Below, piece after piece: positions 21,363-62,608 of a stretch of DNA of 64,000 nt (the stretch's first letter is position 1; every line of letters starts with the position of its first letter). The stretch is from Bryoerythrophyllum caledonicum (Eukaryota > Streptophyta > Bryopsida > Pottiales > Pottiaceae): positions 21,820,637-21,884,636 of the forward strand of contig OZ020515.1 of NCBI GenBank assembly GCA_963971425.1, read 5' to 3'. The translations under genes were made by a program, and so were the position numbers. A model generated the notes under the pieces. It worked only from the letters and a program-made list of their open reading frames with translations, did no database searches and had not been told where the DNA came from.

Positions 21363-22738
21363 ATGGACACTTCAACCGGTGCCTCAATCGACGATGATTT
21401 TGATTTGTCTAGTGACAACTCGTCTTTCCACAATCCAGTAGATGCTGATGTGATGGAATTCGAAGTTCTCTCAAGGCATTCTTGGATTGGTAAAATAGTC
21501 GAAATGAAAAACCTGTCCGGTGTTACAATTGCCACTGGAATACTTCGTAACTTTCACGCCACGGCTATTTCTAGGACTGATGCTCCATTAGGTGATATGC
21601 ACATTGCCATTCAGGTCTCGAGGACATTAGTTGAAGATGAAGCTCCGGACGAATGGCGTTATTGTGTTAAGATTTGGCCTATTGGTCAAGTTTTCTATAA
21701 TAGTGTCAGTCTCTTGCATCACCTGCAGCGTGATACTTACAATTCTGTAATGGCAATGAGAACCCGGTCTCTTGGAGAGAGGACTCGGTCTTATGAAAGC
21801 TCATCTAGGATCCCTTCAACCATGGTTTCAACAAAATCATCAATTCTGCTCTCTGACGAATCTATCAACTTTGTTGCTGGAAACCGCTGTTGCTCTAGGA
21901 GTTGTGTTCAACGCTTCTCACGATTGAAAATTAAGGTATTGCGGATGAGGATGTATTTTGGAACCTCCGTTCAATTTAGAAGGCATATGAAGCTAGATGT
22001 TGACGGACAGTTTCATGTGGACAATAACGGTAGAAATGTGGTGACCATTGAGGGCGTTGATGTGTGCGCAGCTGCCTGGCAGCACATCATGGGCGTCAGT
22101 GAAACCTCATTCTATGAATATGCCAAGGATGCAGCGACTGGTGTAGTCGCGCAACCCCATGGTAATTCAGGGAAACGGAAACCTAGAAATCACATAGTAG
22201 TTGCTACCGCAACATTACGTGTCATTCTTAATAGGAATGCTGACCACATGCCCCACAAGTCCCGCATCTTGCCTTCGGGTGAGACATCTGTGGCCAAAGT
22301 TCTTCCCGCAAATTTCAAGTGGAAAGATCAAATTCCTGCAATTGATGCCCATTTAGTTAATTGCGGGCTTTCCCAAATTTCCACTTCAGGGCTGAGTAAG
22401 ATTAGGCGGGTCCATTTTTCCGATGACGATGCAAAACGACCTGGGGATAACTTTGCACGTTGTTCAACATGTGATAAGTACCATTCCCATCGGAGATTGC
22501 AGTAGCCTGGAACAGAAGCTGCGCTATTGTGGCAGCAGAGGTTGAATCTCCATTTGGATTCAGCATGGGCTCATCGAGAGTTGTATTATTCCAACCGTTA
22601 CCGCTCTCAAGAGTTGCCGGATGAATGTGTTACGATTATGCACGACAAGATGGATCACTCAAAGACTGCATCTCCTGTCCTCTCTCACAAGACGAAACAT
22701 TTGGATGGTCTGATGAAGTTGCCCATCTCTGTTATTGG
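21363..22738 (+). pseudogene. DUF7869-type transposase, copy 2 (3' part replaced)
   Basis: Near twin of copy 1: only a few residues differ over about 380 codons (for example NPVDAD against NPVDVD). The frame from 21,363 stops at 22,503, where CAG has become TAG (RRLQ*PGTEAALL against RRLQQPGSEAALL), then stays open in the same frame to about 22,738 (IMHDKMDHSKTASP). At 22,739 the match to copy 1 ends abruptly after PISV, and the transposase C-terminal half with the DN and HxxED boxes is missing; instead the sequence leads into the HAD phosphatase region. This looks like a deletion that joined the middle of the transposase to a later part of the element. The upstream array is displaced 13 kb by the LTR element. 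Confidence 0.8.
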
Positions 22739-23050
22739 ATGGATTGTACAATCTATCTTTCTCAAGATTTACAATCTATCTCCTAAAGTCATTGTTACTT
22801 CTATTGCATATTCAGCTCGACTCGAGCTGAATATGCATTACTTTCTGTATATATTGTTGTTCACCCTCTGTGTGCATCATGTTAAAATTCAAGTAGTCCT
22901 CTCCCTTGTGTGCATCCAATTATTGAGTACTCATAAACTTGCACAATCAGTTTGAGTCGAGGTGTATGTTGATCTTGTTTAGTATCAACTGTCGTTGCAT
23001 TTTTTGGGCATGTTTGTTCATAACCTTTAATCAAATTTGCTGAATTTCAG
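22739..23050 (+). other. Junction or intron-like stretch with a motif 1 palindrome
   Basis: No open gene. A perfect motif 1 palindrome (ATTCAGCTCGACTCGAGCTGAAT core) lies at about 22,807-22,834. The stretch ends in a good acceptor (TTGCTGAATTTCAG) before the next exon-like block. Confidence 0.5.
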
Positions 23051-24112
23051 ATGCCCTAAGCCTTGAAGTCGATTTCATAAAAGATGATGCTGCCTCTTCT
23101 GAGCATCCTTCTATGGTTGGTGCAAAGCCCATTGATGCTACTTTGGCCATCAACTCACAAGTATAACTTTAATCTCACCAGTTCATGGCCAAAATGATTG
23201 TGCTGTCTTTTGCAGTGCTTCCTTCTTCGTAAAATATTTTGTGCTCTATTGTTATATATTGTTTAATGTTTAGTAACATGTACCTCCACTCTTTCCCATT
23301 TGAATTCCAAGTGGTCAAGCCACTAGAGAGCGTTCATAGCGCCGTATTCCGTGTTTCTCGTTCAACCCCTAGAGTGGTCAAACCGTGGTTAAACATTGTG
23401 TTTGACTTGAACGGTATACTGTGTGTGTGCGAGGAATTCCGCTTGAGGTCTGCTACGCAAGCCTTCAATGCATGTTCTCTGCCACACTCAGTAAAGGTTC
23501 CAGCCAAGGTCGGCCCAAAGCTAGTGTATGTTCGTCCTGGCTGCAAGGCATTTTTGGACGTTGTTTCCAAGTTTGCATCGATATCGGTCTGGAGTTCGAT
23601 GAAATTGAACACCACTAGTAGCATCGTCAATTACCTCTTCCCCGAAAGCAGTCTCACCAAAAGTTATATTTGGACAAGAGCATTGTAGGAGAGTCGTAAC
23701 TGCTGTGATACATAATGTACCTCAATATCTGAAAGTTAAGAACTCGGATAAGGAGGTATTTCTGAAGACGTTGTCGAAAGACCTTTTTACAAAAAAAGGT
23801 GGATACTTTACGAAGGAGAATACCATCATCATAGATGACAGCCCGTACAAGCACGTCCTGAATAATCCGGAGAATGTGCTTCTTGCGGAGACTTGGTCCT
23901 ACAAAGGGGATGGATGGAACGATAAGTGCCTTCTCAATGTCTTGCTTCCGTGGCTCCAAAAGCTCCATAATATTATAGAGTTAGGGCTGCAATCTTTTCG
24001 GCAAGAGAATCCCTTTGGTCGTCCAACAATTTGCTCGGATCCATATAGCTTAGAATACATAGAATTAACGCACGCGATTATGATATCTGATGGGCTCGCA
24101 AATTCAAAGTAG
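23051..24112 (+). pseudogene. FCP1/NIF-type HAD phosphatase gene, copy A
   Basis: An FCP1-homology (HAD phosphatase) domain. A short acidic exon (23,051-23,166; EVDFIKDDAASSEHPS) comes first, then a GT..AG-like intron and the domain exon from about 23,312. Motif I is NIVFDLNGILC: the first Asp is present but the second, normally Asp in FCP1-type enzymes, is Asn. Motif II is ISVWSS; FGQEHC follows near 23,660; motifs III/IV are IIIDDSPYKHVLNNPENV. A one-base frame change near 23,655 separates motif II from FGQEHC; otherwise the domain is whole, ending at the stop at 24,110. Copy B (55,358-56,095) has the same Asn. The role is unknown: possibly a protein phosphatase acting on a chromatin or transcription partner, possibly inactive. 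Confidence 0.7.
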
Positions 24113-24333
24113 TTCACTGGTATCAAACATAATTGTCGTGATGTGTTATACTATACATATCTTGTAATTCAAGTGGCAGTTGCCAGTTCTTTGATATTTG
24201 ATTGTAATTGTTTGTTTGTTATTGTTGAGTTTGTAAGTTTTTGTTCTCTCATTGTTTACATGTTTGAAAAAGAGCCGTTCACCATTTTCTCAAGTAAACT
24301 ATTGTATTGCCACCATGGATTCCTGTTTTGAAG

Positions 24334-25358: not shown

Positions 25359-26045
25359 ATTTATGATCTCAGTGGTACAAGTGCACATTCAGCTTGGCTA
25401 TACCTGAATGTGCATTGACTAGTAATTAATGTGTATGTTTTTGGTCGTAGTAAAAGCCTTTTTCTGCATGGAAAGGATGATGCATGTTTTGTATATGGAT
25501 TACTTCTATCATTTTATAAATAAAGTCTGCAATTAAAGATATTAGTTCATTTGATTCTCCCATTTGGGTACTGTTTGCCTAACATCTTCATATTATCTTA
25601 CAAATATGGTGTTGTACTTCTATTCTAATCATGTTTTGCTTCATCACTACGGTAAAATATTTGGATTACTCAAGAGCATGTACCTCCTAAATCCCTGGAA
25701 ATCTCCCAATATAATGAATATGGTGTTCTTCCTTCCCGTTGCCGGTAGGGCCCCCTTAGGATGAGGTTTCCCAACCCCCGTGGCCTTGCAAGCTTTACAC
25801 GGCCGAGCCTCCTCCTCCAAGCCTTTCAATTACCCTCTAGGCTAGGGTGTTAGTACCAGGTGTTAAACCACTACTTGTCTACTTTAGTATTTCCCTAGGG
25901 TCCTATTTCTTTCCTATTCTAATTCTTCCTAAGAGCCACTACTAGGAGGCTACTTACCTCTAAACTTTGTAAGGTGGTACGGTGATACCCTTCCTAAGTA
26001 ACTAATTACAAAAATTTTAAAATTTGGGGTACGACACCTGGTGTC
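25359..26045. other. Gene-free stretch; possible LTR-like remnant
   Basis: A motif 1 palindrome at about 25,384-25,412 probably marks the end of the motif 1 element. From about 25,735 the sequence is unrelated. At 26,030-26,045 it reads GTACGACACCTGGTGTCAGA, which looks like the end of an LTR followed by a primer-binding-like TGGTGTCAGA, but no partner LTR or coding region was seen. Confidence 0.4.
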
Positions 26046-27573
26046 AGAAAAAAAAACGCTTGGTTCGGCCTCGGTCTCGGACGGATGGCGCTGAGTGAGG
26101 TCTGCTTCATCGGCGGGCCGACTCACATCAAGTCCAGATAGCGCAGCGATCGGATTTTCTATTGGGGTGCGTCTTTCATCCGATCCATTGTCGTTGTTGT
26201 CCTCTTCTTGAGCGCCCTCTTCAATACGATCTGGATCAGGTATCTCCCCTTCCCTATTGTCGTCCTCTTCGTCATCACGGTCCGATTCATTGTCTTTCTC
26301 CTCGTCACTCTAAGGGCCACCGTGGTCAGTGCCAGCTTCATCTTTTGAGGATTCTGACGGAGTCCTTTGTCGTGCACTCCTGAGAATGATTCTTCTCTCT
26401 GGCTGTACATTTTGGGCAAGTGCGCGTGAAACGACCTGGGACTTCTTTCTAATTCTCTCTGCCTTGGACAACCTCTTCTTAGCCAGCGGAGCCTCAGGCG
26501 GGGTAAGGGCTAGAACCTGACGTGCATCCCAAAATTTCTTTGCATTGTCAAAAGCAAAGGTCTTGTCTGCTGTTGAGAACACAACCTCCACGACTCTAGC
26601 GCCTTTGGTCCGCAAGAAAAGACCCGTTTCGAACATAAGGTACATGATTAACGCACCTAAAAACATCAAGAGCAAGAGTGATAATGATGAAAAATGATGA
26701 CATCATTCTTACCACGGATATCCAGGTAATCGCAGAATTAGCTCCGACGTTGATAATAACAACATTGCGATGGCAAAGTACACCAATCAATTTGTCCACC
26801 GCACCAACGTTGAAGTTGGCACGCCCGACCTGATCACAACTCGGTCCGGAGACGCTCTCAAAGTCCTTCGCATTCCTCACAGGTTGAAACTGCAGATCAG
26901 GCGCAAAGTAGTCTCGGAAGCTTGCCTCCGCTGCGTTGCCATCGGTCCGCCCGAAGACGAAATTGAAGTAGAGGGGTAAGGTTGGCTCTATCGATAGCGG
27001 TTTGGCAAACTGCTCGGCCGGAGAAGTGAGGTACACTGTCAACGTGTAATCCCAAACATAACCTTGAAGATAATTCCGATCTTTATCATTGAGCAAGTTC
27101 ACCAGTAAAACCAACCCAACGCGGTCAGTTATAAACACACCTGGACTTCGCGCTCTCCTAAAATTCTGCTAATCCCTGCTCTCCATTGCCGTGAAGCATT
27201 TCACCATCTCTTGCTTCAGGACGGATACATCTCCGGATCCGCGCTACCCTCGGTTGACGAAGTAGTAAATGTAGATCTGCTTCAAATTCTTCGCGTTGAA
27301 GGTCTTCAGGCTCTCGTCTGTCAAGATATTCTTCACATCACCGGTTTTTCTATCCAGCGACCTGACACGATAATAGGATTCCATAAGCTCTTCAGGTTCT
27401 TCTCTGGATGCGCCACGACTACCACCAGCACTATCTCTCTCACTGTCCCTCAGCTGCTGAAACATAGTCTTGAGCAAGGGTGCAATGTCATCTGTCTTAT
27501 GAGAGGGGTTCAGATTGGCAGTCCTCTTCGAGAAGAATAATTGACCATCCTCGTCTTGACTCAATCTGTTGTA

Positions 27574-27649
27574 TCGAGGATGTACTTCTCAATCTGTTGT
27601 ACCGAAGAAGTACATCCTCGGTACAACAGATTGAGAAGTACATCCTCGG
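27574..27649. repeat. Local inverted duplication inside ParB-like copy A
   Basis: About 28-30 bases at 27,574-27,603 (GAGGATGTACTTCTCAATCT core) are repeated as the reverse complement at 27,620-27,649, with a further partial copy between. The arms come from coding sequence, so this is a local template-switch duplication that disrupts the frame. Confidence 0.85.
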
Positions 27650-28268
27650 TAATCTTGTGAGCAGCAGAAAATTGCTCGTACTCCTCCTCCTTATATGGTT
27701 CTTCTACCATCTTCTGTGGAAGCGGCTTCCCCTCAAAGTCGTGCATGAGCTCGTTCTTCAACAATCTTAGCCTCCTCTCAATAAAGCAAAGGTCCTTCAG
27801 ACTCCTCAGAACAACCGGCTTCTTAAGTCCCTTCGAGAATTTCACGGGAATCTCTTTCCGCATCACCATGTCGGCCATCTTCTGACACTCATCATTGGTC
27901 AGTCCATACAGATCCCGAAGATCGTTCTTGTGCAGCGCCCAAGACTCCCTGTTCTTCGCCAGCTTCGAAGCGCGACTTTTTGATGATGAAGCTGCAGCGT
28001 CGTCGTAGTCGTCATCGACACTCGCAGAAAGGACTCCTGTAACATTGTTCCAAGGATTGGGAAGTAGTCCGTCGATGTATAACTCCTCAATTTTGACCCA
28101 TTGTTGGAAGAGAGGATTCGGAACGTACAGCTACGGAAGTTTCGGCGGTCCACTACTTTTATCGAGATCCAAAGCGCCTGGTTTGTTTTCTGAGAAACAT
28201 ACTTTGAGCTTTTCAACAAACGCCTGAAAGCATGAAATGAAGTAAGTACACTCTTGATTGAGGGAGAA

Positions 28269-28289
28269 GACCGGGTGCGCCCCCGATCC
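28269..28289. promoter_or_regulatory. Motif 3 palindrome inside an intron of ParB-like copy A
   Basis: GACCGGGTGCGCCCCCGATC matches GATCGGGTGCGCTCCCGATC, the motif arrayed at 38,112-38,668. It lies in intron 28,224-28,380. The matching intron of copy B holds CCGGAGATCTCCGG instead. Confidence 0.7.
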
Positions 28290-29095
28290 TGGAGTAAAGC
28301 GAAAACAACGAATCAAAAGAATTGGAAAACTTAGTGGAAATGATGAACCTCAATAAACTAAATGGAATAGTAGGACTTACATAGAATTCTTTGGTGTTCA
28401 GGGCACCATTCCGTTTGGGCAACGAGTTGCCGAGCTCGTTCCAGCATCTCCGAGCTGTTTGCAATTGATTTATATAATTGCCCTCCTTCCGATTACCAGC
28501 AAAGTCTTGGTTTAGGAACTTGCTGAAGTATGTGAGTTGGTTGAATGACTCCTTTTTTGTCCACAATATTGTGACAAAGTACTTACGGGCGTTGGCGGCG
28601 TCGCGATCATTAAGGCTACCTTCTTCAAGGAGCTGTATGTGAGCTGTGACACCATGTTGGCCTCCTATAATATAGAAGTGCGTATCCCTGTTGATTTGAT
28701 CCCGTCTTGGTTGTTCGTCAAATAATTCCACAGCTCCGTCTTCCGTGTTTGGGTCATCAACTGGAGTAGGAGGTCCCCTTATCGGCATCACGAAGACATG
28801 TTGCAGCGCTGCGTTGAAGGAGAGAATCGTCCTCTTCTGCGTGACTAAAGCTTCGACTCGCGACGGTAAAAGAGGCCGGTACATGATTGTTGGTGCCGGG
28901 GCCCTATGCAGGTTGTCAATGTTGACGAGGAGGTCCGGTTCATTCGGATCGTCCTTGATCTTGAAAGGGCGCTGGCCGAATATGTGCTATGGGGCGAACT
29001 CCGTCTCGAAAAAGCTGCGCAACTGTACAAGCTCCTTCGTAGTGAATTTCGGAACAGCGGAGTGGGCAAGATTCACAGCTGTCGCCAATGCCATT

Positions 29096-30021: not shown

Positions 30022-33000
30022 TTAATCATCTGAACTTGAGGATTCTTCATTGTGTTTTCGCTTCCGTTTTGATCGGCAAACATTTTGGGGAAGAGAAAGC
30101 TCGCAAAGCACCACCGTATTGTCGCCACGTACCTCATCGCAATCCTCATCGTCTACATCATCGTCCGATGATGAGAAGTTCTCCGCTGCATTTTCCAAGA
30201 CTGGTTGTACGTACTCCTCAATCTCCGAGGCCAAGTTTCGTAGTTGTAGCTCGGCTCCAGTAGTTGATGCGGCGTTCACAAGTCGTTTTATTCAGATATT
30301 CTTCTTTTTGTCTGTTACTCCATCCATGTTTTTGGAGCGGTTGCCTTTGGCCCCAATGACTCTCTCCGAGGTTCCACTTCGCCAAGGTCCCGTGAAGAAA
30401 GGGAGAGTACCATTGTTCTTGCCCCTCCGTGTCCCTAAATGGCTGCTCATAGTAGAGGACCCAACCCTCGCGGAGGAAAGTTGTGGGGTTAGTATCGCAC
30501 GCTCCACACCACCATTTGGGCCAAATGCCCTACGGTGGACGGGTGGCCGAACTATTGTTGAAGAGGTCTTTTTCTTTACGCGTAAAAGAGTTCGTTCGAT
30601 CGATGCAGTACCAAGAGCACGTGGTCGCCGAAACAAATCTTGGAGCGGCATGTCTTCTTCTGAGTCCGGTTCTATTGCTTGAGGCAAAACCGCATTGCTT
30701 CTCACAACTTCAATGGACCCCGTAGTGGCCATTGGCTCAAGGGATTCATTATTGTTTCCAGCACTGCTCACTTCGTTTCCATCGTGAGGAAATGTATCGT
30801 TTGCTGCAATGCCAATGCCATGACCGTCGATATCAGGGCCATCGTCACTAGAAGGGTCTGAGGCGCTAGAGCCGTTTAAGTTGGAAGACTGATTCTCCGA
30901 GATGTTGTCATCTCCATCAAGATTGCCCCCCAATGCCGACCCATCTTCGTCTGCCCTAGCTTCTTGGGCACGGTCTTCACCCGATAATTCTACTATGGTA
31001 TGGACTGCCGTTGCGTCGACATCATCAAACACAAAAGGATCTAGTGGGTCACCGTGAACGTTGTGAAAATGGTCATGTAGTGCATCTCCACCGTGCTCGT
31101 TGTTTGCAGAGTTGCCCCTAGGTGGGCTATGATTAGACATGGGGTTGTTGTAACCGGCAAGGTCTTCCCAATCGCCGCCCATCCAGTTGTAACCCTCATC
31201 ATCCGACTCCAAGCCCTCGTCCTCTGTGTTTGAAGGAAGTCCCCCATCTAGATCAGACTCCTCCAAATGCACATTCTTCTTATACCATCGAATCGGGTCT
31301 GGACGAGCACGTTCTCGGAGCAATCGACTATTCGTGTAGATGTAAACCAAATCTTTTGCTTTCTGCACTCCCAAGCGATTTCGGCTCTTACTATGCACGA
31401 ACGAATACATGCTCCAATTACGCTCACATGGCGAGGCCGAGCAGGTTTATGCTAGTATACGCTTTGCAATGATAGGCAATGATTGCCCGCCTACACGGTT
31501 CCACCATTGGTGAGGCAAGAGGTTGTTGTTTTCAATTTCCCCAGCTTCCTCCGGTGAATATGGGCCTCGCAATTCTTCATACTCCGTGATTTTGAGCATT
31601 ACTGCCAAAAAAGACACTCCGAGTGGACCACAGAGCGTCATAACAACCTTGTTTAGGGCCCTTTTGGCCTCACCATTGTTTTGAATTTGCAAGTTATTGG
31701 CTAGATAAGGATTCAATAAAGCCCCTGCATAATGGAGATCTGTTGTCATCATCTCCCAACGCCGTAGGAATTATCCTTCAAGGCGAGTTGCAATTCCGTC
31801 AAGCATGTTGAATGGCGCATTGCGCAGCTTGAACACATGCTCCTTTAGCTTGTTCATGGTCACCCAAGCAATTTCCATTGCCGGAGTGTCACCATCAAAA
31901 GTCCGCAATGCCTTTAGTACTGGTGCCACTACAAATTCAAAGTTACTGTACCGATGCCAGAAAGTCTCGTCTAGAACGGTGGCTCGCACCTGCGATGCCT
32001 TCGCATGGGCACGGTGCCCGTTTTGCCTATCGAAAAGAGAGGATACGTTGGATATCCATGCTGGGTCTATCACAACCATCTCCAGGGCATTCTTCACTTC
32101 CAATAGACGATGGATCATTATGTAATTGCATGCAAACCTTGTTGCTGCTGGCCACAACAGAGACAATTTTGGCAAAAATCGACGAAAAAGGGCCATGGGC
32201 ACATGGTGGTTCTGGATATACAATGCAATCTGTTTCGCCTTCTAGACGAGGTCTGCAAACATGCCTTCCTTCCTCCAGTCCTTGAGGAGGAGGTCCAAAA
32301 TATGTGCACAACACCCTTGAATATATATGTGCGGGTACTCATCGTTGACCTTCTTCATTGCCCCCAACATGTTTGAAGCATTATCGGTGCACACTTGGAC
32401 CACATTCAATGGTCCAACCTTACGGATAAAACTTTTCAATTGGTCCCCTATATATGCCGTAGATTTCTTCATACACGTGGTGTCTATAGACCCCAAGAAG
32501 ATATCACCCATTGGACATACGAGCATGATATTCATGAGAGGGCGACGTGTAACATTGTCCCACCCGTCCGAGCATATTGTTGCCCCATACTTGGCAATAT
32601 CTACGCCGGTCTTCTTGTCCACAAGGTCTTTCACTTTTTTTTAGAGGCTCAATGTATGTCGTCCTCATGGCATTGTACGATGGCGGTGTACAATCAAAAC
32701 CCGCCTTTGACATTGCGAGGGTGGCCTTGATGAAGACCGGATGTCTAACCACGTTGAATGCAACGTTGGCTTCATAAAAAAAATGTGCCTATAATTCGTC
32801 CAATTCTTTTTGTTTTTCTATTTGGTAAGCCTCTAGAAAGCTCCGTTGTCGTATAGATCTTGGTGTTGACGATGCTGCTTAGCTTAGAGGATTTGTGGAC
32901 TGCGTGTTCTCCTCATTTTGAGTTTCCAAGAAACTACCTTGTTGGATGGATTGGCTAGAACAAGGTTCAGTGAAACATGTTGCTAGTGCGCTAGGAAGGC

Positions 33001-33247
33001 CAACGATCTCCGCCTCGGTCATCCTAGTAGGAATAATATCCCCGCATCTTTTAAAACGGGCCTTAATAGCTGCTGGGGCCTTAGTGCACGAAGTCTTCGT
33101 CCATTGTGGATACCCATAGTGTGACATGCACCTCCCACGTTTGTATGCGAACGTGTAATTGCACCAAACACATGTCACTTGATCCTTCTTGTTAAATGTG
33201 TACCATGGGGCCCACTCCTTCGTTTGAGCCCTTTGTTGAGACGACAT
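30022..33247 (-). pseudogene. hAT-family transposase with long acidic C-terminal tail
   Basis: Cut-and-paste transposase. The N-terminal part (from ATG 33,247) has a BED-type zinc finger (VTCVWCNYTFAYKRGRCMSH). Next comes a DUF659-like region with the catalytic boxes CSDGWDNVTRRP and VQVCTDNASNML (about 32,580-32,350), a helical insertion (about 32,220-31,770), and the C-terminal hAT dimerisation region ASPCERNWSMYSFVHSKSRN (about 31,440-31,380). A tail of about 450 residues, rich in Asp, Glu and Ser, follows to 30,022; it is not usual for the family. The reading is split at several points (near 32,780, 32,640, 32,240, 31,760, 31,445 and a stop at 30,292), some of which may be introns; at least the homopolymer site near 32,640 is a frameshift. 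Probably inactive. Confidence 0.85.
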
Positions 33248-33461
33248 CACAATAAAATTGGCGCGCAATGTTGTGCCAAAGAGAATCCGCCAAAAGTAAT
33301 AGAAAATTGTGTGTGCATAGAAAATAATGACCCAAAGGTCACTCACAAACTTGTAGATTTATGCAAGGAGCCCAATAAGGAGTTCCAGGACACGAAGCCA
33401 AGGATGTGAGATGAGTCAAGCACATCGCATATAGTTCTTATATAGTGCTGGAGCAGGAGCA

Positions 33462-33870: not shown

Positions 33871-34750
33871 CTAAACTCGTGCCTTCAAGTCTTGAATTTC
33901 TTTAAGACATTTTGCAACTTCATTATCCTTCTCATCGAGCTCTTCTCCTAGATCCTCAATTACGTCCAAGCTTTCATTTAGTCCCTTCTTTACTCGAAGA
34001 TAATCGTCACGACTCACCCAGTCACCCTCCGTAGACTTTTTTTTATTATCCACGCCCTCCTCAGGTACCGCATCCGTCTTTGTCGCATCTCCGTCTTGTT
34101 GTGAAACCGACGGTTTAGGGTTCGACGCTGATATGATGGACAATTCTTGTTGCCTACGCACAGACTGATGACATCCAGTATTCGAGTCGGATGATGAAGA
34201 CGCGGACCACTCGATTGTTTGATTCTAAGGTTCAGCTTCCATGGTTTTCCCGAGACCTTCTCCTGGAAACTTCCGCACAAACGGTATTGTTAATCCAATG
34301 ACTGGCGCCATCTTGGAGTGTGTTTGGATTTCCATTGTCCTCCAATCAACCGATATGCCAAGTACCACCTCCACGTAAACCATTCGTAAAATTGAAATGT
34401 TTACAGAGTTGCCGCTCAATTTTGCCTCGTCGTAAATGTGCTGGTACGCTTGGATACAATGCTCCGTAAAGAACTCATTAGTGCAGTACCCCAAGTTGGC
34501 CATGTTTGTACGTCACATTAGAGAATATCGCGAGTATGGCCAGAGGTGCCCCAAATGACACCATCCAATGTATTTTGCACAGTGTGCAAATGTCCATGGA
34601 GTTGGAACTGACTACCAACCAGAAAATGCCTTCATCTTCTCATCCATCAACACGTAGAGGCGCTTCTTCTGCTTTGAGCATGTGTGACGGAAATCACGTT
34701 GTCGCTTTCCATGGGGACTGCTAGTGGTAGATGGTTGTCCAGAATCCATG
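33871..34750 (-). pseudogene. Unknown accessory gene, copy a
   Basis: Not a family I recognise. From ATG near 34,750: a basic, Ser-rich start (STTSSPHGKRQRDF), KKRLYVLMDEKMKAFSGW, WTFAHCAKYIGWCHLG, YCTNEFFTEHCIQAYQHIYD, ILRMVYVEVVLGISVDWRTM, then a Ser-rich linker and a C-terminal coiled coil (ESLDVIEDLGEELDEKDNEV) ending at 33,871. In-frame stops (TGG-TAG near 34,610, TGA near 34,515, TAG near 34,223) break it. The gene at 36,011-36,828 is a diverged duplicate. Confidence 0.6.
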
Positions 34751-34924
34751 GTGACGAGGTGGAGGAATACGAAGGTGGCAAAATACAAAGGTGTCAAAAG
34801 ACACCGTAAAAAACTTCCCAAAAGTGCCAAGCAAGCAGCCGCCACGTGGTAGTTGCAGGCCAAAGCGCCTAGGAAGTGGGGTCCATAACTTTGAAATCTC
34901 ATATTTATAGTAAATTAGTGACCT

Positions 34925-35015
34925 ATGGCGGGCGCATACGACCAAGAGGCGCGCGTACGCGCGAGGGCTGCGCGTGTACGCTGGAGGGCTACGCGCGTAC
35001 GCGAGAGGGGTGCCT
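34925..35015. repeat. GCGCGTACGC array upstream of accessory gene copy a
   Basis: Four units around GCGCGCGTACGCGCGAGGG. A matching unit precedes copy b at 37,017-37,056. GCGCGTACGCGC is itself palindromic. Confidence 0.65.
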
Positions 35016-52440: not shown

Positions 52441-52721
52441 CTACACAAACATCGCATTTAGTGTCGTAAATACACTAAATTCGAACTCTTACACTAAAAG
52501 GAAGAATTACAATTAGTGTAACGACACAACATTACACTAAATGTGAAACATTACACTATATGTGAATTGCAGTAAAAATGGGTGGTTTTTTTTTACTTGT
52601 GCACAATTAGTGTATGAAAAAGCTTGCCGCAACTAACACTAATTGTGAACAAGTTCGCAAATAGTGTAATAGGGTAATTACACTATTTGTGTGACTACAC
52701 TAAATGCGATGTTTAGTGTAG
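52441..52721. mobile_element. MITE with CTACACTAAACATCGC ends, 281 bp
   Basis: Ends match the MITE at 49,894-50,116 (CTACACAAACATCGCATTTA on the left; TAAATGCGATGTTTAGTGTAG-type on the right, shown from about 52,701). The inside differs: it carries many TTACACTAAATGTG-type short repeats in both directions. Confidence 0.75.
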
Positions 52722-52725
52722 CTCT

Positions 52726-53061
52726 TCAAAAACATTGGCGTACATCTGCATTAAAACTGGGGCATGCAAGTGCGGATAAGCACCCCAAGCTGCAAAGGAC
52801 CCAACTCGCTGCCCCTCTTTGCAGTGACATGCAAATAGTCGATGAACCCCACAACATTGCCCGTGGAATCCTCAACCGGAACAGCACCCCCGCCCGGTCC
52901 TTCTCGAATATCACATTGTACACCTCGTCGTTGACCGGGCAGGCCTCGGTCTCGATGATGCAGACGATTCTGCCCTCGTCGGATGGCGGACAGTAGAGGT
53001 ACTTGCCGAGCGGACAGCGAACAAGCTCCACCGCGAAGGACACCATGTTGCAATGGACCAT
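52726..53061 (-). pseudogene. Possible alkyladenine DNA glycosylase (AAG/MPG-like) fragment
   Basis: The reading from 53,061 contains AVELVRCPLGKYLYCPPSDE and GRIVCIIETEACPVNDEV. This resembles the start of AAG-type 3-methyladenine DNA glycosylases (ARxLLGKxLVR..G.IVETEAY..xD), enzymes that remove alkylated bases. The match covers only about 45 residues; the key Tyr after ETEA is Cys here, and the rest does not follow the family. The frame runs up to a MITE end at 52,721. Best seen as a decayed or captured gene piece; the family call is tentative. Confidence 0.33.
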
Positions 53062-53146
53062 GGCGTGTAATTGAACGACATTTCAGTGATTTGAAATTCA
53101 CAAGTTCCTGCATCAAATAAGCGTGATTATTTCTGAATAAGCTCAT

Positions 53147-54266
53147 CAGGCCTTTGGAGCATGCAGTTGTTTATTCACATAGAATTACATTGGCTCCTGT
53201 GCACCTTATATCATGATCCCTGGAGGCAAGACAGTTAAACTGATGCTATTTTAATATTATAACCTATGATCATGTGAAGGTGAAGCTCCAGTTGCCGCAT
53301 ATGTGTGTAGTACGCGATGAGGTGAGGCGGAGTTCTGCCTAAAATCATAACAATTGGTGCGTAAAGAGTTGAAAGCATCATGGTACACTTTAACAGTGCA
53401 CTTGACGAAGTCGAGTGCATAACATGAAATAGAATATCATGATTTTTGCAAAAAAAAAATTGATTTTTGCAAAAAAATATTATTTTTGCAATTTTTAAAT
53501 TATTATTTTTTAAACTTCCAATATTGAAATAGTTACTAATCTATTAAAGTGTTAAGTAAGCCATGATACATTCTCTGCCATAGAATCTAGCCTATGTCCA
53601 CTACATATATTGCCATTATTGATCCCACTGCACTCAAAAACTGCTCCCTAAGAACTCCTGTGTTGGAGAATCATGCTGAAAACAAAATTACTAGTTGTAG
53701 TAATTTCACAATGGTTACAACCTTATTGGTGGTTGTCCTACCTTAAAACCACTATAATAGATGACATCATGAAATCACCTCAAAAGATGGACAATGGTGG
53801 ATCATTATTCATAGTTGGTCGTTCATTGGATGTGATTTGTTCACGCTATTAAGATGGGTGGTGGAGATAGGACATTCAACCTTAGCTCATGAGGTGAGCT
53901 ATATCCAATTTGCATGAAATTTGTGAGGAATTTGTACGGTAAAAAATTCACAAATTTTTTACCACATCATCTCATATAATTCCCAAGAAGCAGGGTTGTC
54001 TATTATGTCGTGACGGGGACGATTTCCGTCACAATGTCACGATGTATGCCATATTCAACTATTTCTGGATTATGAGGTGAATTCTGGACTAAGGACTAAA
54101 AGAAAGATCCGGAGATGTGCCTCATAAAAGATAGTGAAGCATAAAAGTCGAGGAGTTTAGAGTACTTTTCAAGCATTAAATGCATCACCAATGACACTTA
54201 TGAAGGAAGAAATGGCTAGAGCGACCAAATTTGAATTTAGACAATACTTGAGTCCGCAGCATGCAG
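53147..54266. other. AT-rich stretch without recognised gene
   Basis: A/T homopolymers near 53,440-53,510 and a short inverted pair near 53,940 (GTAAAAAATTCACAAATTTTTT). No gene, RNA or complete repeat seen. Confidence 0.5.
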
Positions 54267-54438
54267 CCGGATATCTCCGGGTAAATATCAAGGTGGAATT
54301 CAGAAGAAGAACCGAGACCTGAGAACAGAAATTGATGGACATACTGAACATCACAAATGTGTGGTTGGGAAAAATGTGGTAGGAAAAAATGGGACAGAGC
54401 TGCGGACAAAAATAGAACATGCAACCGGATATCTCCGG
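54267..54438. repeat. Two motif 2 palindromes at the 3' end of element B
   Basis: CCGGATATCTCCGG at 54,267-54,280 and 54,425-54,438, each one base from CCGGAGATCTCCGG. They lie beyond the last coding block and may mark the element's left subterminal region. Confidence 0.75.
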
Positions 54439-54554
54439 ATGAAATCAGAGTAAGATTCCAATACTAAACTGTTTCATTATAAAAAAGTGTCATTCAATAA
54501 ATAAAGGGTGGCCGTTTCTAAGAGGCGCATGTAATCTACAGAAAATCGATTCAA

Positions 54555-55019
54555 CTATTCTAATTTAAGTGCTTTACAGATGCCCTCTACCCGTCCTGTA
54601 TGGTGTCTCCTATATGTTAGATAATGGACTATAGCCTTTGTAGGATTCTTGAATGGATCTAGATCTGCAACAACAACACATTTAGGCCACAAATAATGCC
54701 TTGATCGAGGATTAAATGAGGCTTTCTTGAAGATGTGGAGAAACCTAACATAGCTAGGCCTTCGAGTCTGTTTGCTGGCATAGCAAAAAAGAATATCTGA
54801 TAAGATGTCTGGGGGCAATAACACTTAGGCCGCCTCCATGAGCCTATCTGGACGCATAGGAGACGAGATCCCGACATTGAAATACCGTAGTAGTATTCGA
54901 ATAACATCTGCCGTGTCATCAAAGGAAGGTAGCTGCGCGGAGCGGGACTTGGCCGAGTCAAGGACCTCGTCCGAGCAGAGAGGACCGCGAAGAGATATGA
55001 TTATGACCTGCGAATAAGA
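54555..55019 (-). pseudogene. Last exon(s) after HAD copy B, unrecognised
   Basis: From an acceptor near 55,020 (TTATTCGCAG) the frame reads SLRGPLCSDEVLDSAKSRSA and RILLRYFNVGISSPMRPDRL, meets one TAG at 54,822-54,824, and continues VLLPPDILSDILFCYASKQT to RVEGICKALKLE and the stop at 54,555. Family unknown. The intron before it contains motif 2 (55,099-55,112). It may be the C-terminal part of the ParB/HAD gene. Confidence 0.45.
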
Positions 55020-55098
55020 TGGCACGAACATAGAATTGGAAATTGAACATTGAAACGAAGAGAAAATATGGTAGGAGGACTTCATGTGACATCCTCGA

Positions 55099-55112
55099 CC
55101 GGAGATCTCCGG
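55099..55112. promoter_or_regulatory. Motif 2 palindrome in last intron of element B gene
   Basis: Perfect CCGGAGATCTCCGG between the HAD region and the last exon block. Confidence 0.8.
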
Positions 55113-55357
55113 GTGCCCCTCCCAGACCAACGTTCCGTAGTCGAAATGGTCAGGAGAATACTCAATAGTGTTCACAGATATTGGAAGGTGAAGTTTGGGG
55201 GCGAGACACTAACAATAACAAATCAAAAGGACCTCAACAAATAACGTTACTGACAAGAACATTTATCTTCAAAATTGAATGGTCGAAATCCCACAGACAT
55301 TTTTGGCTTAACATTTACAAAGCATACAGTTAATAATATCCAGTATATTTCAATGTT

Positions 55358-57080
55358 CTAAGGCGCCGGAGTTATGCCCTTCACCACGGGGCGGGCCTTA
55401 GAGGAATTTTTGTCTACTGGAACACTGGCAAACATCAATGGATTCCGTCTAACAAAGTCGGGAACATCCTCATTTGACGCTAGCAGTCCGAAGAGCCATA
55501 GGAGAAAAATGGTGGCCAACCAGGTTTCATTCGAAAATCCAGTCCATGATGGCGGATGAACTACGTTGAATGGATCGTTAAGGATGATCTTTAGTGGGAT
55601 ATCGTCCACAAGCAAGACATCCTTGGGAGACCTGGGCCACGCCTTGGTGTTATAAACTGTCAGGGCCTTAAGGAAAATTGGCTTCTTTGGATGGGATGGG
55701 AGCGTATATGTTGTTTTTGTGCAATGGGCCTGCGTCAGGATTGTGACGCCTTCCGGAATGACAACACCTTTCTTGCGCAACTCCTAGATAATATCCACAA
55801 TATTCTTTTCCATCTCACTGCTCCAGAATGAGATAGTAGCCTTCTCTCCCACGAAGTTCAGGAGTTCAGTGGAACCAGGCCTTACTTTGATGTCTCTCGG
55901 TTGTCCCTGTTTGAATTCCCCCATGTGTACAAGAACTCCATTTAAGTCAAACACGACATGATAAACCCGATTTGATGTTACCTGATCCTCGGTTGGAGGC
56001 TCTCGGACAATCGTAGTAAGCTTCGTTGGACTTGAACCCAAAATACGAGCACGTAGACTGAGATGAGGATGTTGTTCAGCACAGAGAAATTGCAATTATA
56101 CATGTAGAAGTGTTCCGCACTCACAATCCTGAAATGCTCGATGGAAGAATGAGCACTATATAGATGATGGCACGTAAGTATGAATGTACATATTAGGCAC
56201 CTGGGACAGTAGGTGGAGTATCCCTAGAAGTCTGAGCTACACCAGCGACTTGAGCAGTCTGTGCGAGGTTTCTGTCACCAACATCCTTTGACTGTGTTGA
56301 TTTTGCCGACCCCTGAATACCAGTAATGAAGTGGTAAGAATACAGTCTGCATTGAGTGAACTGTCCTTAGAACAATGAAGAAGGTTTGATGGACAAGTAA
56401 CTATTCACCTTATCTTTCTGGGCCCTTGTCAGAATTGTAGGTGGAGGAGGAGGAGCTTTCGCCGCAGGATTCTTCGCGGTTGCTTTTTTCTTCTCATTTT
56501 GAGCCAGCTGCCCGTGGCTCCGCGGAGGGCTGCGCAGAGGGCTCATAGCATGTAATTCTCACAATGTCTGTTGCGCCGATGCGTCATCCATCGTTTGATT
56601 GGTGTCACGCAACGTCAAGTCCTCGGCACTCTTGCACACAACCTCCACTTCAGGACGCGTCCTCGAAGGGTCGTCCAACGGGAGAACTCCGGCTGCTCTG
56701 TGGGTGTCGTCGAAGTCTAGGCGATTGGACATTGCCGTGACATCGTCCAGATCTGGCGGAGGAGAACGTGGCATTCCGGAATGCCAACTGGTTTCCTTTT
56801 GAGAGGTACCCAGTCTAGCGTCCGGAGTAGAGTTGCTTGTTGAACTAGGCGAGGCTTGCCTGATAGGAAGAGGTGGTTCATCAACGTTTACCTGTATGGG
56901 GTCGATTGGGACGCCCGCTCCGATGATCCGCGCGGCTGTGGCTAAGGACTGGAGTCCAATGTTGGGTGAAGCTGAGGAACTCGGTTCATACCGCACATCA
57001 ACTTCAATCATCGTGGCATCAGGCATTTGCGTCACATTGACGAAGTCAGTATGAAAAACATTAGGAAGCAGTACAAAAGA
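55358..57080 (-). pseudogene. FCP1/NIF-type HAD phosphatase region, copy B
   Basis: A linker exon (57,080-56,559, rich in Pro/Ser/Asp: MPRSPPPDLDDVTAMSNRLD), two short exons (near 56,521-56,409, AAKAPPPPPTILTRAQKDK, donor GTGAAT; 56,309-56,198, SAKSTQSKDVGDRNLAQTAQ), then the HAD domain from about 56,070: YHVVFDLNGVLVHMGEF (motif I, Asn for the second Asp as in copy A), ISFWSSE (motif II), and LLVDDIPLKIILNDPFNV (motifs III/IV). An in-frame TAG (CAG to TAG) near 55,784 splits motif II from III; otherwise the domain is whole to the stop at 55,358. It follows the ParB-like gene on the same strand with matching splice signals, so the two may be one gene. Confidence 0.7.
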
Positions 57081-57096
57081 AAATAGTATCATACAC

Positions 57097-57222
57097 CCGG
57101 AGATCTCCGGTTCAAAGTAATCCTTGTCTACTGGGCGAACTAAAACTGAGCATGGCCATGAGAAATAAGAGCCCTTAAATATGGAGGGCATCCTAAACGT
57201 ATGAACAGCCGGAGATTTCCGG
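57097..57222. promoter_or_regulatory. Two motif 2 palindromes in the intron between ParB-like and HAD parts
   Basis: Perfect copy at 57,097-57,110 and CCGGAGATTTCCGG at 57,209-57,222. The intron's donor is GTATAACG near 57,246, after the coding block ending SRMNYTGE. Confidence 0.8.
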
Positions 57223-58971
57223 GTCATGTAGTTTTCTTAGGCGTTATACCTCGCCGGTGTAGTTCATCCTTGACATTGCCCGTATTAGAACACCAGCGCC
57301 TGGGGTTGATCCAGTGATGGCAGTCTCCTCTGCCTCCTCGGCAACGGCGTTGGGTATGTCGGCTAAGATATTCAAGTGGTACTTGAATATTTCTTCTACG
57401 CAGGATTCTGCCTTGAGTTTGGCATCTTCGCTGTTGACAATCTCGAGGACCCGCGCGTCGTGAGTCTGCAAGAAATAACCGGCGTAAGGCGTCATCCAAA
57501 ACATATAACTGAATGCGGACCAGAAGTCTTTGACGTTGAAGTGCTTGGAAAGGATGTCCTGCTTACCAAGCCGAGGTATGTTAAATGTGGTCCATCATGG
57601 ACATTGACGACCACCATACCCTCTCTAATGAACCCCGTGAACAACAAATCGAGGACCGAGATCCTCAGCTGTGGGACACCGGTTTGCTTCCAACGTTGGA
57701 TGGTTTCTTGATGTTGAGCAGCTGAAAAGAAGGCCGGTATTTTGTCCGAGTGGACTTTGTAGAGCCTCTTGAATGACTGAGCAGGCGTCTTGGTCGAGTC
57801 GTATTCATACAGGAATACACAGTATTCTACCTCCTCGACCCCGATTACTGGGGTCGGAAACCAATCACCTAGGTGGGGGAAGTTTCAAGTAGTAGACCAC
57901 ATGCGTCGCCCACAATTTCACCTTGCCCCTGGATTTTCTCTGCCGAAGACTGATGTACCTCTTCAATTCAACAGATCCCGCAACATCGGTGATAAGAACG
58001 GACGGTGATCTGATCCTTGTCCTCCCGTCCTTCGTGTCCACTTCCAGATGGTCGAAAATTGTTCTGAAGTCCAACGCATCAAGGACCTGTGCACGGCATA
58101 TGTCGTCTTTCACGCGATAGAGGAAAAAGAAGTAAAAGTGAGGGTCATTGACGTTACGCCACTCCTGAATGTCCAGCATGATAAGTACTTCGGCGATCTC
58201 GCCCCCTCTCTCTGGCATAACCCTGCAGGTGTATTTGGAGTCGAACAGGGACGTGTCATCCGTGGGTGTGGCCTCGGCAACATCTTCAACGATGTGTTGA
58301 CTCCAAATGGACACAAGGATGTCTGGGGTGGGGTCGGTCTCCTTGTTGATCGCCTTCAGCCGACCCTCAAGCCAAGCTTTACCCTTGGCAGAGTGATTAG
58401 CAGCGTCCACCCAGGACTCGAGCTGAACCCGTCCAATATCCCACTCTTCCGCAAAGGCGTCCCACTACTCCTTCGTATAAGGGACGAAGTCAGCAGCCTT
58501 TGAGGGAAGGAGGTGCGACTTGTAATGCAACATCAGTTCATTCTTCATTGCTCGGATTTTCTTCTCCCTGTTCGCCGCCTTTTCGAGAGTCTCGGCCTGC
58601 CCTTTTAAGTTTCATAGTACCTTGGTTTGCCACTTTGGAGGACTTCACACAGACCTTCTTCGCAAGCACTAACTTCGCATGGTAGTCCAGGTCTTCAGCG
58701 CGCATTTTGTAGAGTGGCTTGAAGTCGTTCTGCACTAGAGGTTTCCGCTTCAGCTTAGCTCGGTCGCCCGTCTTCCCGTTCGAGTTTGGTAGGAGTCCAG
58801 CGACGAACATCGTATCGATTTGGATCCACTTCTGGACCACCACATCATCCATCTCGAATAGAAGAGGGACCTTCGTGTCTTTTGGGTCAATTTTGCCGAG
58901 GTAAGTGAAAACCGTCGGCACCACTTGCTGTTGGAACGCCTGCAATAATATATAACTCAGTGTCTGAGCAC

Positions 58972-58985
58972 CCGGAGATCTCCGG
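58972..58985. promoter_or_regulatory. Motif 2 palindrome in intron 58,940-59,062
   Basis: Perfect CCGGAGATCTCCGG in a 123 bp intron (donor GTAAGC, acceptor ATTGCAG). The matching intron of copy A carries motif 3 instead. Confidence 0.85.
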
Positions 58986-59380
58986 TAGATTGGATTGGTT
59001 GCTTTGAAGAATGAGCGCATTCATTTTATTAAAATTTATTGAGGCGGAAAATGTAAGCTTACCGAGAATTCGTCAGATTGTGGACGACCATAGAGTTGGG
59101 GGGCAGGTTTTCCGAACTCAAACCACTTCACTCTGCACGTTTGTAGCTGTTCTGTAAAACTCTGCTCCCTCCGCAAACCCGTCAGATCTTGATTGAGAGC
59201 GCGCGAGAGTTGTAGCAGGGTCATGTCTTTGGGTCCGGATTGGTCCAAACCGGGGTGATAGAGAAGTGCGAGATTTCTTCGAGCGTCCACGTTGATGGCA
59301 GTTCGTATGACAAGATCTTGTACGCCTCCACAGTATGCTGACCACCAATAATGTAAAAGTGTGTTGTGTCCCTTAGGCAG

Positions 59381-59869
59381 TCCTCATTCGTCGGCTTGGT
59401 CGCGAAGAACTCCACCTTAGTTCCTTTAGGTTTTTTCTTCAGTGGCAAGACTCGAATGTGAATCTCAGGGGCCGTGCCTTCGAGGATGCGCGAACTGCGT
59501 TGATGATTCCTTCGAGCCGTTCTTTCTGGATGCCCCTGTACACTAATCCTCCAGGGAGGCCCTGTGTAGGTTATTGAAATGAACGAGCTTCACGACATCC
59601 TTCTTTGTGACAGGGTCTTCTACTGTCAAAGGCTTATTCTTGAGTATGTAAATGCAGTCCTCCTTCGTCGGCTTGGTCGCAAAGAACTCCACCTTAGTTC
59701 CTTCAGGTTTCTTCTTCAGTGGCAAGACTCGAATGTGAATCTCAGGTGCCGTGGCCTTCGAGGATGCGCAAACTCGTTGCTGATTCCTTCGAGCCGTTCT
59801 TTCTGGATGCCCTTGTACACTAATCCTCCAGGAGGGGCCCTTTGCAGGTTATTGAAATGAACGAGCTTC
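59381..59869. repeat. Tandem duplication within ParB-like copy B
   Basis: About 59,381-59,600 and 59,660-59,869 are near copies (both contain AACTCCACCTTAGTTCCTT and TGTACACTAATCCTCCAGG). The coding segment upstream of the GGQH box is therefore present twice. Confidence 0.8.
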
Positions 59870-60480
59870 GGGTAGAAGTCAGCTAGGATTACTCACGTTT
59901 GGGCAAAAAAAATATACCCAAAAGTATATTTTTTTGGCCAAAAAAACTTAATTTTGCCCAATTTAATGGAAAAAAAGGTTTTTCTTCAGAAAAAATTATG
60001 TTTCAAGATGGATCTATGCATGATGTATCTGATTGGATAAGAAATCAAAGAAAAAATCAACATTGAGTCCTATTTTAGGAGCCTTGAAGAAATATCTTGT
60101 TTTTTAGCAATAAAAGTGAAAATAAGTTTTCGATCTAGAATTTTCAATTATAATATATGAACACATTATGGCGTGAATGTGTCCCAAAACTTTTGGAGTG
60201 TTTAACTTCCTAGAACTCTCAAAATAAGTATATTTGACAAATGTCATATACTTGTGACAGATATATACTGATGGAAGATATACCTATATTGGCCAAATCG
60301 TAAATCAAAACTCAACATTTTTGAGGTTCCTAGACTTTAAATCAAGGCAATTATCACATTCCATCAATAGAATTCCAAGATCAATCCCACATTCGCACTA
60401 TGTAGCAAAAGAAGGTTTGTAATTCTTTCCAAAACCATTTGTGACTTTATAAATATACCACCTTAGTGGACTTTGACCCC
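59870..60480. mobile_element. AT-rich MITE-like insertion, 611 bp, TSD TTC
   Basis: Starts GGGTAGAAGTCAGCTAGG and ends as the reverse complement of GGGGTCAAAGTCCACTAAGG, an imperfect inverted repeat, flanked by TTC at 59,867-59,869 and 60,481-60,483. It splits the coding sequence of ParB-like copy B after KKDIVK. No coding potential; superfamily not assigned. Confidence 0.6.
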
Positions 60481-61511
60481 TTCACGATATCCTTCTTCGT
60501 GACAAGGTCTTCTACTGTCAAAGGCTTATTCTTGAGTATGTTAATGTTTTTGAAAGCATCGTCCAGTACCTTGCCAATTGCTTCAACTTCAGTCCGCTTC
60601 ATTTTGGCAAGGTCAGCCTGTGTGAAGTTCAGGCACTGTTCGATCGCGAGGCCAGGCTCATCGGCCTTCGCTTTCTTTCCCTTCTCCGCCCGCGACGAGG
60701 AACCTGGGGTCGAAGTTTTCAAGGTGATCTTGCGTTTTCATCCCGGGGTTGATTCTGGTGTCGGAGACAGAATGGGAGTCGCGTCTGGAACAGGCTTTCG
60801 GGACTTCTCTTGTGCTTCTGCCATCCACTTCCACTACTCATTAACGTACTCCGGCATCCAAGTATCACTCGTGGGAGGGGCATATAATAAGTTCTCATTC
60901 TGACATGTCTCCACCATCACATCCGAAATCTTAGATGTCTCCAGGATCAAGCCGAATATGAGAGGCTCGGTGGATGAGTCCACGTTCTCCTGGACGATAA
61001 GGAGGCAGACCTCGTCATCAAGACCCCGCATCTCCAGAACCTCAAGTCCAATGTCGGGGTGTCCCCGTTTGCCAATCCGAAGTTGGGGGACGTATTTCCA
61101 GGCTTCTTCAGGGGTTTTCATGAGCTTCATTCCCTACTGGCTAATGCTCTGTCGGCATGTGTAGACGTAGCCAACATTGTTAATCCCTCTGTAGACAAAC
61201 TCAGGGAGCCAGAACTCTACAAATGCCCCAAGCTTCCCGGGACGACATTCAGTCGGAAGTGTGGTTGTCGACGAATCCCTGCAAGATGATATCGAAAGAA
61301 CACAAACGCAGTTAGAAATCACTGCAATTAACCGGTAATCTATGCGGAGTCCGTCACTCAAAACCGGATGTATTCGTAGGGATGGAATCCATAAAACGAG
61401 CTTCTAAATCAATTTAATATTGCCTCAACTAGGGGAGGTCTTCGCTCAATTATCAGATCTACAGACACTCCAATGATCTCAAATCGCTTGAAGTATCTTG
61501 CATGCGCTCAA

Positions 61512-61981
61512 CCGGAGATCTCCGGTTCGGCAGGCAAGATTTGTAGTCGTTGTGAGGGGGTATCGAAACTTTCTTGAAACGTCTCGAGATCTCTAGCTCT
61601 ATTTCGGATTTTGAACAGCAATGGGGATCGTTTTCGTTCAATCCCATCGCAAAAGTATCCGGAGATCTCCGACTGATTTGTGGAAGTCGTGTGCATCCGT
61701 CCAGGAACGATTCGGCGTAGATCAGACGGATCCATTTCTGTCCTAACCAGAGATCTCCGGATGATGACCACAATGAAGAGTTTCACGATATTCACATCTT
61801 CATCCGCGCGAAAATGCACTGCTTCATAACGTCCGGAGATCTCCGGCTATTTTTGAGATTTACTTAATCGTGGATATATATTTTAAGACTCATCAGACCT
61901 CGACATGTCACATTATCTAGAGATCTCCGGCTGATTATTGGAACTCCGTATTCCGTTCGGGATGCAACCGGAGATCTCCGG
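61512..61981. repeat. Cluster of six motif 2 palindromes in intron 1
   Basis: CCGGAGATCTCCGG or one-base variants at 61,512-61,525, 61,659-61,672, 61,747-61,760, 61,833-61,846, 61,917-61,930 and 61,968-61,981. Spacings are 147, 88, 86, 84 and 51 bases, with unrelated sequence between, so only the palindrome recurs. Confidence 0.92.
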
Positions 61982-62608
61982 CTGCAGCAAGTACGGCATT
62001 ACAATGCACTAATCGCTACTGACCATCAAGGGTATATTCACAATCATTCACAGAGAAGTTTGACATACTATTCTGGATGTTTGACATACTCAAAATACAT
62101 GTTTCAAAATAGAAAACACAAAGAAACGTATCAAATGCTCACACAATGCTTTCAATAACCGACCTTACACACAAGAAATTGAATCTGCAAATGTTTCGAC
62201 GGAATGCCAAATGTGACGTTTGTACATAGATTACTCTTCTCACATTGAATCGGACCGGACTCGAAAGACTCAGTATGGACAAGCACATTCAAACGTCCGT
62301 ACAATACCATAATCAAACGCATATACATGAATTGAAACACACTTCTGTTCAGGGGACAACAAAAAATCAATCGACTATAGCCTAACAGACATCTGAATTC
62401 CAGTACTCAACTTCTGAGGTTTCTCTTCATTATTCGAGTGTTGCTCATTGTCATACACCCGCTCGGAATCAAAAGAAGAAATTCGAATCACACTCAAATA
62501 AAGAATCCACACACGGTCGCTCAGATACAGCGTAAACAATTCAATGTTGTGGACTTACCGGTCTCCTTGCCATGAAGTCTCACTCGACGTTCCAGCTCTA
62601 GTCGCCAT

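Follow-up and report, generated by a model that had tools for sequence, protein, structure and literature searches.

Probable large cut-and-paste transposons with DUF7869, ParB-like and FCP1-like genes and family-specific palindromes in a moss genome

Three gene types in search of an element

What kind of DNA brings together genes for a DUF7869 protein, a ParB-like protein and an FCP1-like HAD protein, linked in pairs by different palindromes? The question is raised by a 64,000-bp stretch of the genome of the moss Bryoerythrophyllum caledonicum (hereafter the window; G000:C2:21820637-21884636, in an assembly of 437 Mb and 894 contigs). In a first-pass annotation, these gene types had each been counted in two or three copies and ascribed to a single type of mobile element existing as several families with different palindromes. 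The gene types and their homology were borne out, but two of the supposed transposase copies turned out to be inverted arms of one element. The window very probably holds remains of large (~19-20 kb) autonomous cut-and-paste transposons, in which a DUF7869 transposase (TPase) is accompanied by fixed ParB-like and HAD partners and by a family palindrome that is probably bound by the ParB-like protein. Three families are partly represented in it: family 1 by transposase and HAD genes, family 3 by ParB-like and transposase genes, and family 2 by HAD and ParB-like genes. At the level of the genome, families 1 and 3 at least have all three genes, and family 2 has at least the HAD and ParB-like genes.

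A complete three-gene copy of family 1

A genome search with one transposase copy of the window, TPase B, yielded 658 candidates, of which 40 were scored; 24 of these matches formed 12 inverted pairs, the window included, and 16 were single (~96%). Four inverted pairs (P1-P4; L009-L020) and four single copies (S1-S4) were fetched, some of them incomplete, with S1, S2 and S4 read at one end only. The copy S3 (L029+L030+L025+L026, 7275-26037) is complete: it spans 18,763 bp between perfect 28-bp terminal inverted repeats (TIRs), is flanked by the target-site duplication (TSD) TAGG/TAGG, and carries all three genes:

1619-2554, minus strand: HAD gene, an open frame of 312 amino acids
~4450-7316, minus strand: ParB-like gene (KFYIINGQHSVAAS), matched by the window's ParB1 in tblastn (E 6.6e-8, 26% identity)
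15291-18103, plus strand: DUF7869 transposase gene

Three genes within 20-25 kb, between the same termini and a target duplication, were what the first-pass annotation had proposed to look for, having seen no uninterrupted copy itself. Stops are present in the ParB-like and transposase genes of S3; the transposase frames of S2 and S4 are stop-free across the aligned stretch, and the ParB-like gene of S4 has an open frame of 575 amino acids.

In the inverted pairs P1-P4, each end carries the 28-bp terminus AACACCATATTCATTATATTGGGAGATT, apart from a single mismatch at one P1 end, and the duplications are 4 bp long (CAAA, CAAA, TGGA and ATTT, respectively). These pairs also have the HAD gene, as do all family-1 copies for which the left part was retrieved, and in them an inverted duplicate of the 5' part of the transposase gene replaces other sequence found in the single copies. 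The window copy belongs to this rearranged form:

1-25727, minus strand: family-1 element, rearranged copy, with TIR and flanks at both ends and homology to P1-P4 and S3
460-3363, minus strand: DUF7869 transposase copy A (TPase A), with 4 stops across the stretch aligned to P0004
3484-3825: motif-1 palindrome array of 34-bp units
7663-8038: second motif-1 palindrome array, in the inverted arm
21348-22750, plus strand: DUF7869 transposase copy B (TPase B), a truncated inverted duplicate of A
23233-24112, plus strand: HAD1, FCP1-like (NIF, DLNG motif), the two matched pieces being separated by frame shifts
25700-25727, minus strand: family-1 TIR, AACACCATATTCATTATATTGGGAGATT

Its other end lies 159 bp to the left of the window (C2:21820478), and its TSD is CTTC/CTTC. 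In a self-comparison of the window, TPase A and TPase B, on opposite strands, were 99.0% identical arms within a single element that also holds HAD1. The segment 3465-8057 was considered as a separate foldback transposon and rejected, as it is the interior of the family-1 element. The rearranged subfamily, in which transposase and palindrome array are duplicated internally as a large inverted repeat, accounts for 12 loci among the 40 scored matches, and this inverted form seems to be mobile, because the four fetched pairs and the window copy keep intact TSDs.

Family 3 and the linkage of ParB-like and transposase genes

The middle of the window holds a family-3 copy, in which homology to another locus, L037, starts at 26039:

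26039-47701, plus strand: family-3 element remains (motif 3), with ParB1 and TPase C, the HAD end being missing or displaced
26039-29094, minus strand: ParB1, ParB/sulfiredoxin-like gene (FYIIGGQHGVTAH)
38113-38659: motif-3 palindrome array upstream of TPase C
39657-46935, plus strand: DUF7869 transposase copy C (TPase C), split by an insertion
47674-47701, minus strand: family-3 TIR (ATGCGACATTTAACTAAATCTGGACTTT inward)

DNA searches with ParB1 (40 of 77 candidates scored) and TPase C (40 of 413) revealed that 23 of the 40 ParB matches have a transposase match within 60 kb, all with ParB on the minus and transposase on the plus strand or the mirror image of this, and in no other order. On large contigs, 20 of 31 ParB matches were linked in this way, against a mean of 0.3 and a maximum of 3 in 1000 random placements; this control covered C1, C2, C3, C8 (with an assumed length), C9 and C11, and excluded C7, C14 and small contigs. 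Contig C1 holds 25 of the 40 ParB1 matches and 25 of the 40 TPase C matches.

These results bear on the simplest alternative, namely that unrelated transposons and host genes came to be neighbors by chance. Insertions of LTR, hAT-like and foldback type do make the window a nest, as detailed below. Against chance stand the complete three-gene copy with its TSD, the recurrent fixed geometry and the linkage far above random placement, on the strength of which this explanation was rejected as having practically no likelihood. Nor do the ParB-like and HAD genes behave as single-copy host genes, since ParB and HAD2 DNA is multi-copy in the genome and HAD1 is found in the fetched family-1 copies.

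The locus L037, one of those linked, contains two HAD-like stretches and the 3' part of a ParB-like gene. The 12 scored matches that belong to family 3 all end at window positions 47701-47706, which marks the right end of the element, and a TIR beginning ATGCGAYATTTAASTAAA was found at both ends of five copies. Four of their TSDs are exact (TCCT, ACAT, AGAC and TAAG), and the fifth, AAGG/TAGG, has one mismatch. A family-3 copy of 20.3 kb (C1:32925164-32945431), bounded by a one-mismatch duplication, nearly matches S3 in content: its HAD gene and ParB 3' part were read directly, and its transposase was placed by match position. Hence, a single element with all three genes is a matter of observation in family 1 and nearly so in family 3. 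A 230-bp repeat (L037 2935-3164, also in S3 and others) was rejected as a family-3 terminus, being a flanking repeat that ends at the element start.

Families 1 and 3 differ in their inverted repeats and share 4-bp duplications, exact in 10 of 11 copies and with a single mismatch in the other. Both families thus have TIRs and TSDs of fixed length in several independent copies, the pattern expected of a cut-and-paste DNA transposon. The same pattern argues against a relic of a virus-like, self-synthesizing element of the Polinton or virophage kind, which the large size, the several genes and a ParB-like partition protein might otherwise bring to mind. Neither a polymerase nor a capsid was detected when the main frames, those of the LTR retrotransposon excepted and those of S3 in part, were scanned with Pfam, and a scan of IMG/VR confirmed none of 39 pattern stretches as a transposase relative, so that a viral origin appears most improbable. 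Among prokaryote genomes, 1 of 83 pattern stretches was confirmed, on a 4.3-kb contig (L048) of the cyanobacterium metagenome-assembled genome AVDCRST_MAG81 with a DUF7869 transposase 63% identical; this contig is probably a eukaryotic contamination.

Family 2

The right part of the window contains a third element:

54046-64000, plus strand: family-2 element (motif 2), extending past the window end
54267-61968: motif-2 palindromes CCGGAGATCTCCGG, 13 with at most 2 mismatches and none elsewhere in the window
55412-55960, minus strand: HAD2, FCP1-like (DLNG motif), with one stop
57247-59589, minus strand: ParB2, ParB/sulfiredoxin-like gene (FYIIGGQHTVEAY), broken

A search with 52700-57200 (1007 first-look candidates) set its left end at 54042-54046, where 36 of the 39 copies scored besides that of the window begin. 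The family-2 terminus, ATGCCATATTCAACTATTTCTGG, resembles both family-3 ends, as 3 and 74 of 5000 random 28-mers score as high, and also that of family 1 (15 of 5000); the termini of families 1 and 3 are no more alike than chance (2680 and 1420 of 5000). These 28-mers were composition-matched and drawn from the window, its own ends included. A transposase was looked for in the 3.5 kb that follow the window copy on its right side and in 2 kb of a second copy, a stretch that contains five further motif-2 palindromes, and was detected in neither. A search with P0043, which represents a different DUF7869 group, gave 4768 first-look candidates, of which 58 were scored and 30 of these were stop-free. 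An abundant DUF7869 group was rejected as the source of the family-2 transposase, with just 1 of 39 family-2 ends within 60 kb of a member, at 52.7 kb.

The encoded proteins

The gene copies of the window are damaged, HAD1, HAD2, ParB1 and ParB2 being interrupted by stops or broken frames and TPase A by stops. DUF7869 was identified by Pfam at 45633-46256 (E 8.5e-36), and a further match at 1834-3363 falls short of the curated cut-off. TPase A/B and TPase C are 26-52% identical at the protein level, and the closest named relatives come from the mosses Ceratodon purpureus and Physcomitrium patens. The residues D299, D425 and D465/D467 are conserved and no E is present at the third position, which corresponds to a D-D-D pattern. 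A predicted model gives modest support for an RNase-H-like fold of the transposase, and a Foldseek search of the PDB returned no significant match for this model or for that of the ParB-like protein. Because of the TIRs, the fixed TSD and the D-D-D pattern, we strongly infer from sequence that the DUF7869 protein carries out cut-and-paste transposition.

The ParB-like genes match no family convincingly in Pfam or NCBIfam. They contain a GGQH motif like that of sulfiredoxin/DGQHR proteins, and the predicted model of a relative, P0001, resembles the structures of ParB, Noc and sulfiredoxin, in keeping with a ParB/Srx nucleotide-binding fold. ParB1 and ParB2 are 30-41% identical, and no ParA match was obtained among the frames scanned. 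A later frame of a ParB-like gene (L032:2752-4392, minus strand) ends in PGDLVFSAFGGSKFLIAS, similar to the DNA methylase motif FxGxG. Fusions of ParB with methylases occur in phages; no Pfam or PDB match supports a methylase-like end here. The DUF7869 protein P0078 and the ParB-like protein P0138 from ENA both come from 325,919-base contigs, possibly one contig of another genome.

Pfam assigned the HAD genes to NIF/FCP1, at 23233-24112 for HAD1, at 5.6e-13 for HAD2 once its stop was read as X, and with 55.5 bits against a curated cut-off of 21.8 for the S3 gene, the sequence of which matched nothing among PDB sequences at E 0.01. HAD1 and HAD2 are 27-32% identical. The catalytic motif of HAD phosphatases is DxDx(T/V). 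In its place, the HAD genes have D-L-N-G in 8 of 8 places found with a search pattern that admitted N or D only and would pass over other variants, and in L037 by eye; the second HAD-like stretch of L037 reads SVNG. Since the second catalytic Asp is replaced by Asn, the HAD protein may bind a phosphoprotein rather than cleave it.

One palindrome for each family

The pairing of genes by palindromes noticed in the first-pass annotation holds, as does the idea that families differ in their palindrome. Motif 1 (TTCAGCTCGA/TCGAGCTGAA) lies in the transposase and HAD block, motif 2 (CCGGAGATCTCCGG) in the HAD and ParB block, and motif 3 (beginning GATCGGGTGC) in the ParB and transposase block, each being nearly confined to its own family. 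With at most 1 mismatch, 44 motif-1 half-sites were counted in the family-1 element of the window and 2 elsewhere in it. In S3, 30 lie inside the element and 1 in 16 kb outside, and the corresponding numbers are 33 and 0 for P1, 32 and 0 for P2, 40 and 1 for P4, and 34 and 13 for P3 (L015-L017), in which the 13 half-sites outside 4802-22937 perhaps belong to a neighboring fragment of family 1. Motif 3 occurs 28 times in 26039-47701 and not elsewhere in the window, and 11 times in the L037 copy with none in its flank. For motif 2, counted at up to 2 mismatches, all 13 sites of the window are in family 2, and a 14th, at 11803, requires 3 mismatches; beyond the window, P2 has 3 sites close to a HAD2-like gene, and L037 has 1 within the family-3 copy.

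In S3, the motif-1 sites (1051, 2761-2905, 4386-4457, 5766-5822, 7375-7858, 15060-15094 and 18182-18544) are placed upstream of the HAD, ParB-like and transposase open frames, within the ParB-like gene and near both ends. The predicted fold, the position of the sites and the different palindrome in each family link the palindrome to the ParB-like protein, and we tentatively favor it as the site of this protein rather than of the transposase, while rating that assignment at somewhat less than an even chance.

Relation to known elements and proposed mechanism

By TSD and D-D-D pattern, the comparison suggests Sola as the closest known superfamily, as judged from descriptions rather than sequences. 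Sola1-3 elements are characterized, in excerpts of the literature, by a 4-bp TSD, a D-D-D transposase and variable TIRs, some exceed 15 kb, and they occur in the moss Physcomitrella (PMC10741241); the 4-bp TSD and the conserved D-D-D-type pattern of the moss transposase fit this description. In contrast, the passages on Sola mention no ParB-like or HAD gene (PMC10741241, PMC3627910), and the TSDs of dictyostelid Sola2 elements are given as AWWT in an excerpt of PMC3627910, to which 1 of the 10 exact TSDs here (ATTT) conforms. Chimeric Sola2-Fanzor elements have a 4-bp TSD, a transposase of ~888 amino acids and a second gene; this partner is Fanzor, not a ParB-like or HAD protein, and family palindromes go unmentioned in the part of the source that describes them (PMC3627910). 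Similarly, KolobokP, which according to an excerpt combines a transposase with a His-Me homing endonuclease, also has a second nucleic-acid protein and differs in superfamily and partner (PMC9587614).

A Sola-type transposon with two captured passengers has to be considered, in which the ParB-like and HAD proteins would be idle in transposition and the palindromes would serve the transposase or host factors, like subterminal repeats of other plant DNA transposons. Large plant elements often capture genes. CACTA/EnSpm and foldback elements, too, have repeated subterminal motifs, with another transposase and TSD length, whereas here the motifs also lie upstream of all three genes. The excerpted features of Sola listed above (PMC10741241) and the Fanzor genes that can ride in Sola2 elements (PMC3627910) favor such a capture. 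On the other hand, the HAD proteins (26-35% identical across families) and the ParB-like proteins (25-41%) are highly diverged, yet gene order, strand and motifs are kept; long retention is therefore favored over recent chance capture, and the S3 sites upstream of all three genes are at odds with mere passengers. On balance, idle passengers seem unlikely, though this is the most serious of the alternatives.

In the preferred interpretation, that of a transposon with fixed partners, the DUF7869 protein would act on the short TIRs and leave the 4-bp target duplication, and the ParB-like and FCP1-like HAD proteins would belong to the element as fixed components, their two genes lying together on the other strand. 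The ParB-like protein most likely binds the family palindrome, as ParB binds parS, and could in this way label the DNA of the element as its own, control the element's genes, or keep the long ends together for the transposase. Bacterial ParB-parS, KorB and Noc are comparable in their predicted fold and in that the DNA coding for the protein bears palindromic sites; in contrast to the bacterial ParB-parS system, the moss proteins are those of a eukaryotic transposon and have the GGQH motif, and the palindromes are putative binding sites. One might go further and imagine a eukaryotic transposon group with its own ParB-parS-like system, in which the ParB-like CTPase of each family recognizes a palindrome that has diversified along with it and is distributed over the entire element; this would serve self-marking, end-pairing, or retention and segregation, and an FCP1-like pseudophosphatase would provide a tie to transcription. 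We consider this conceivable, though less likely than not.

The ParB-like and HAD partners appear to be new, and the elements may be of Sola type with new partner genes, with some chance of a new superfamily. In open-licence papers, no description of such an element or of DUF7869 was found. Three orphan gene types are tied here to one mobile element abundant in this genome, and annotated DUF7869 proteins can be taken as probable transposases, the activity of which is testable given the many open frames (30 of 58 scored). If the proposed role of the ParB-like protein is true, this protein and the family-specific palindromes would represent a new route of self-recognition for a eukaryotic transposon.

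Other sequences in the window

The families are interrupted or flanked by DNA foreign to them:

8058-21243, plus strand: Ty3-type long terminal repeat (LTR) retrotransposon inserted in the family-1 element
40955-45285: long-inverted-repeat (foldback) element inside TPase C

The former is a young insertion of 13.2 kb, with LTRs of 2.3 kb each that are 99.57% identical and an apparent TSD ATCGT (junction read by eye). The latter contains G+C-rich 31-bp and 326-bp repeats and has relatives beside the right flank of P1 and in L049. Minus-strand frames at 30292-33358, dimerization-like and zinc-finger-like by eye and without a Pfam match, are probably the remains of a hAT transposon. An unknown gene-like stretch in two diverged direct copies occupies 34231-37058 and is followed by a run of 200 N (37061-37260). 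Lastly, a repeat of very high abundance begins with 48198-48900, the only part covered by 27 of 42 matching rows.

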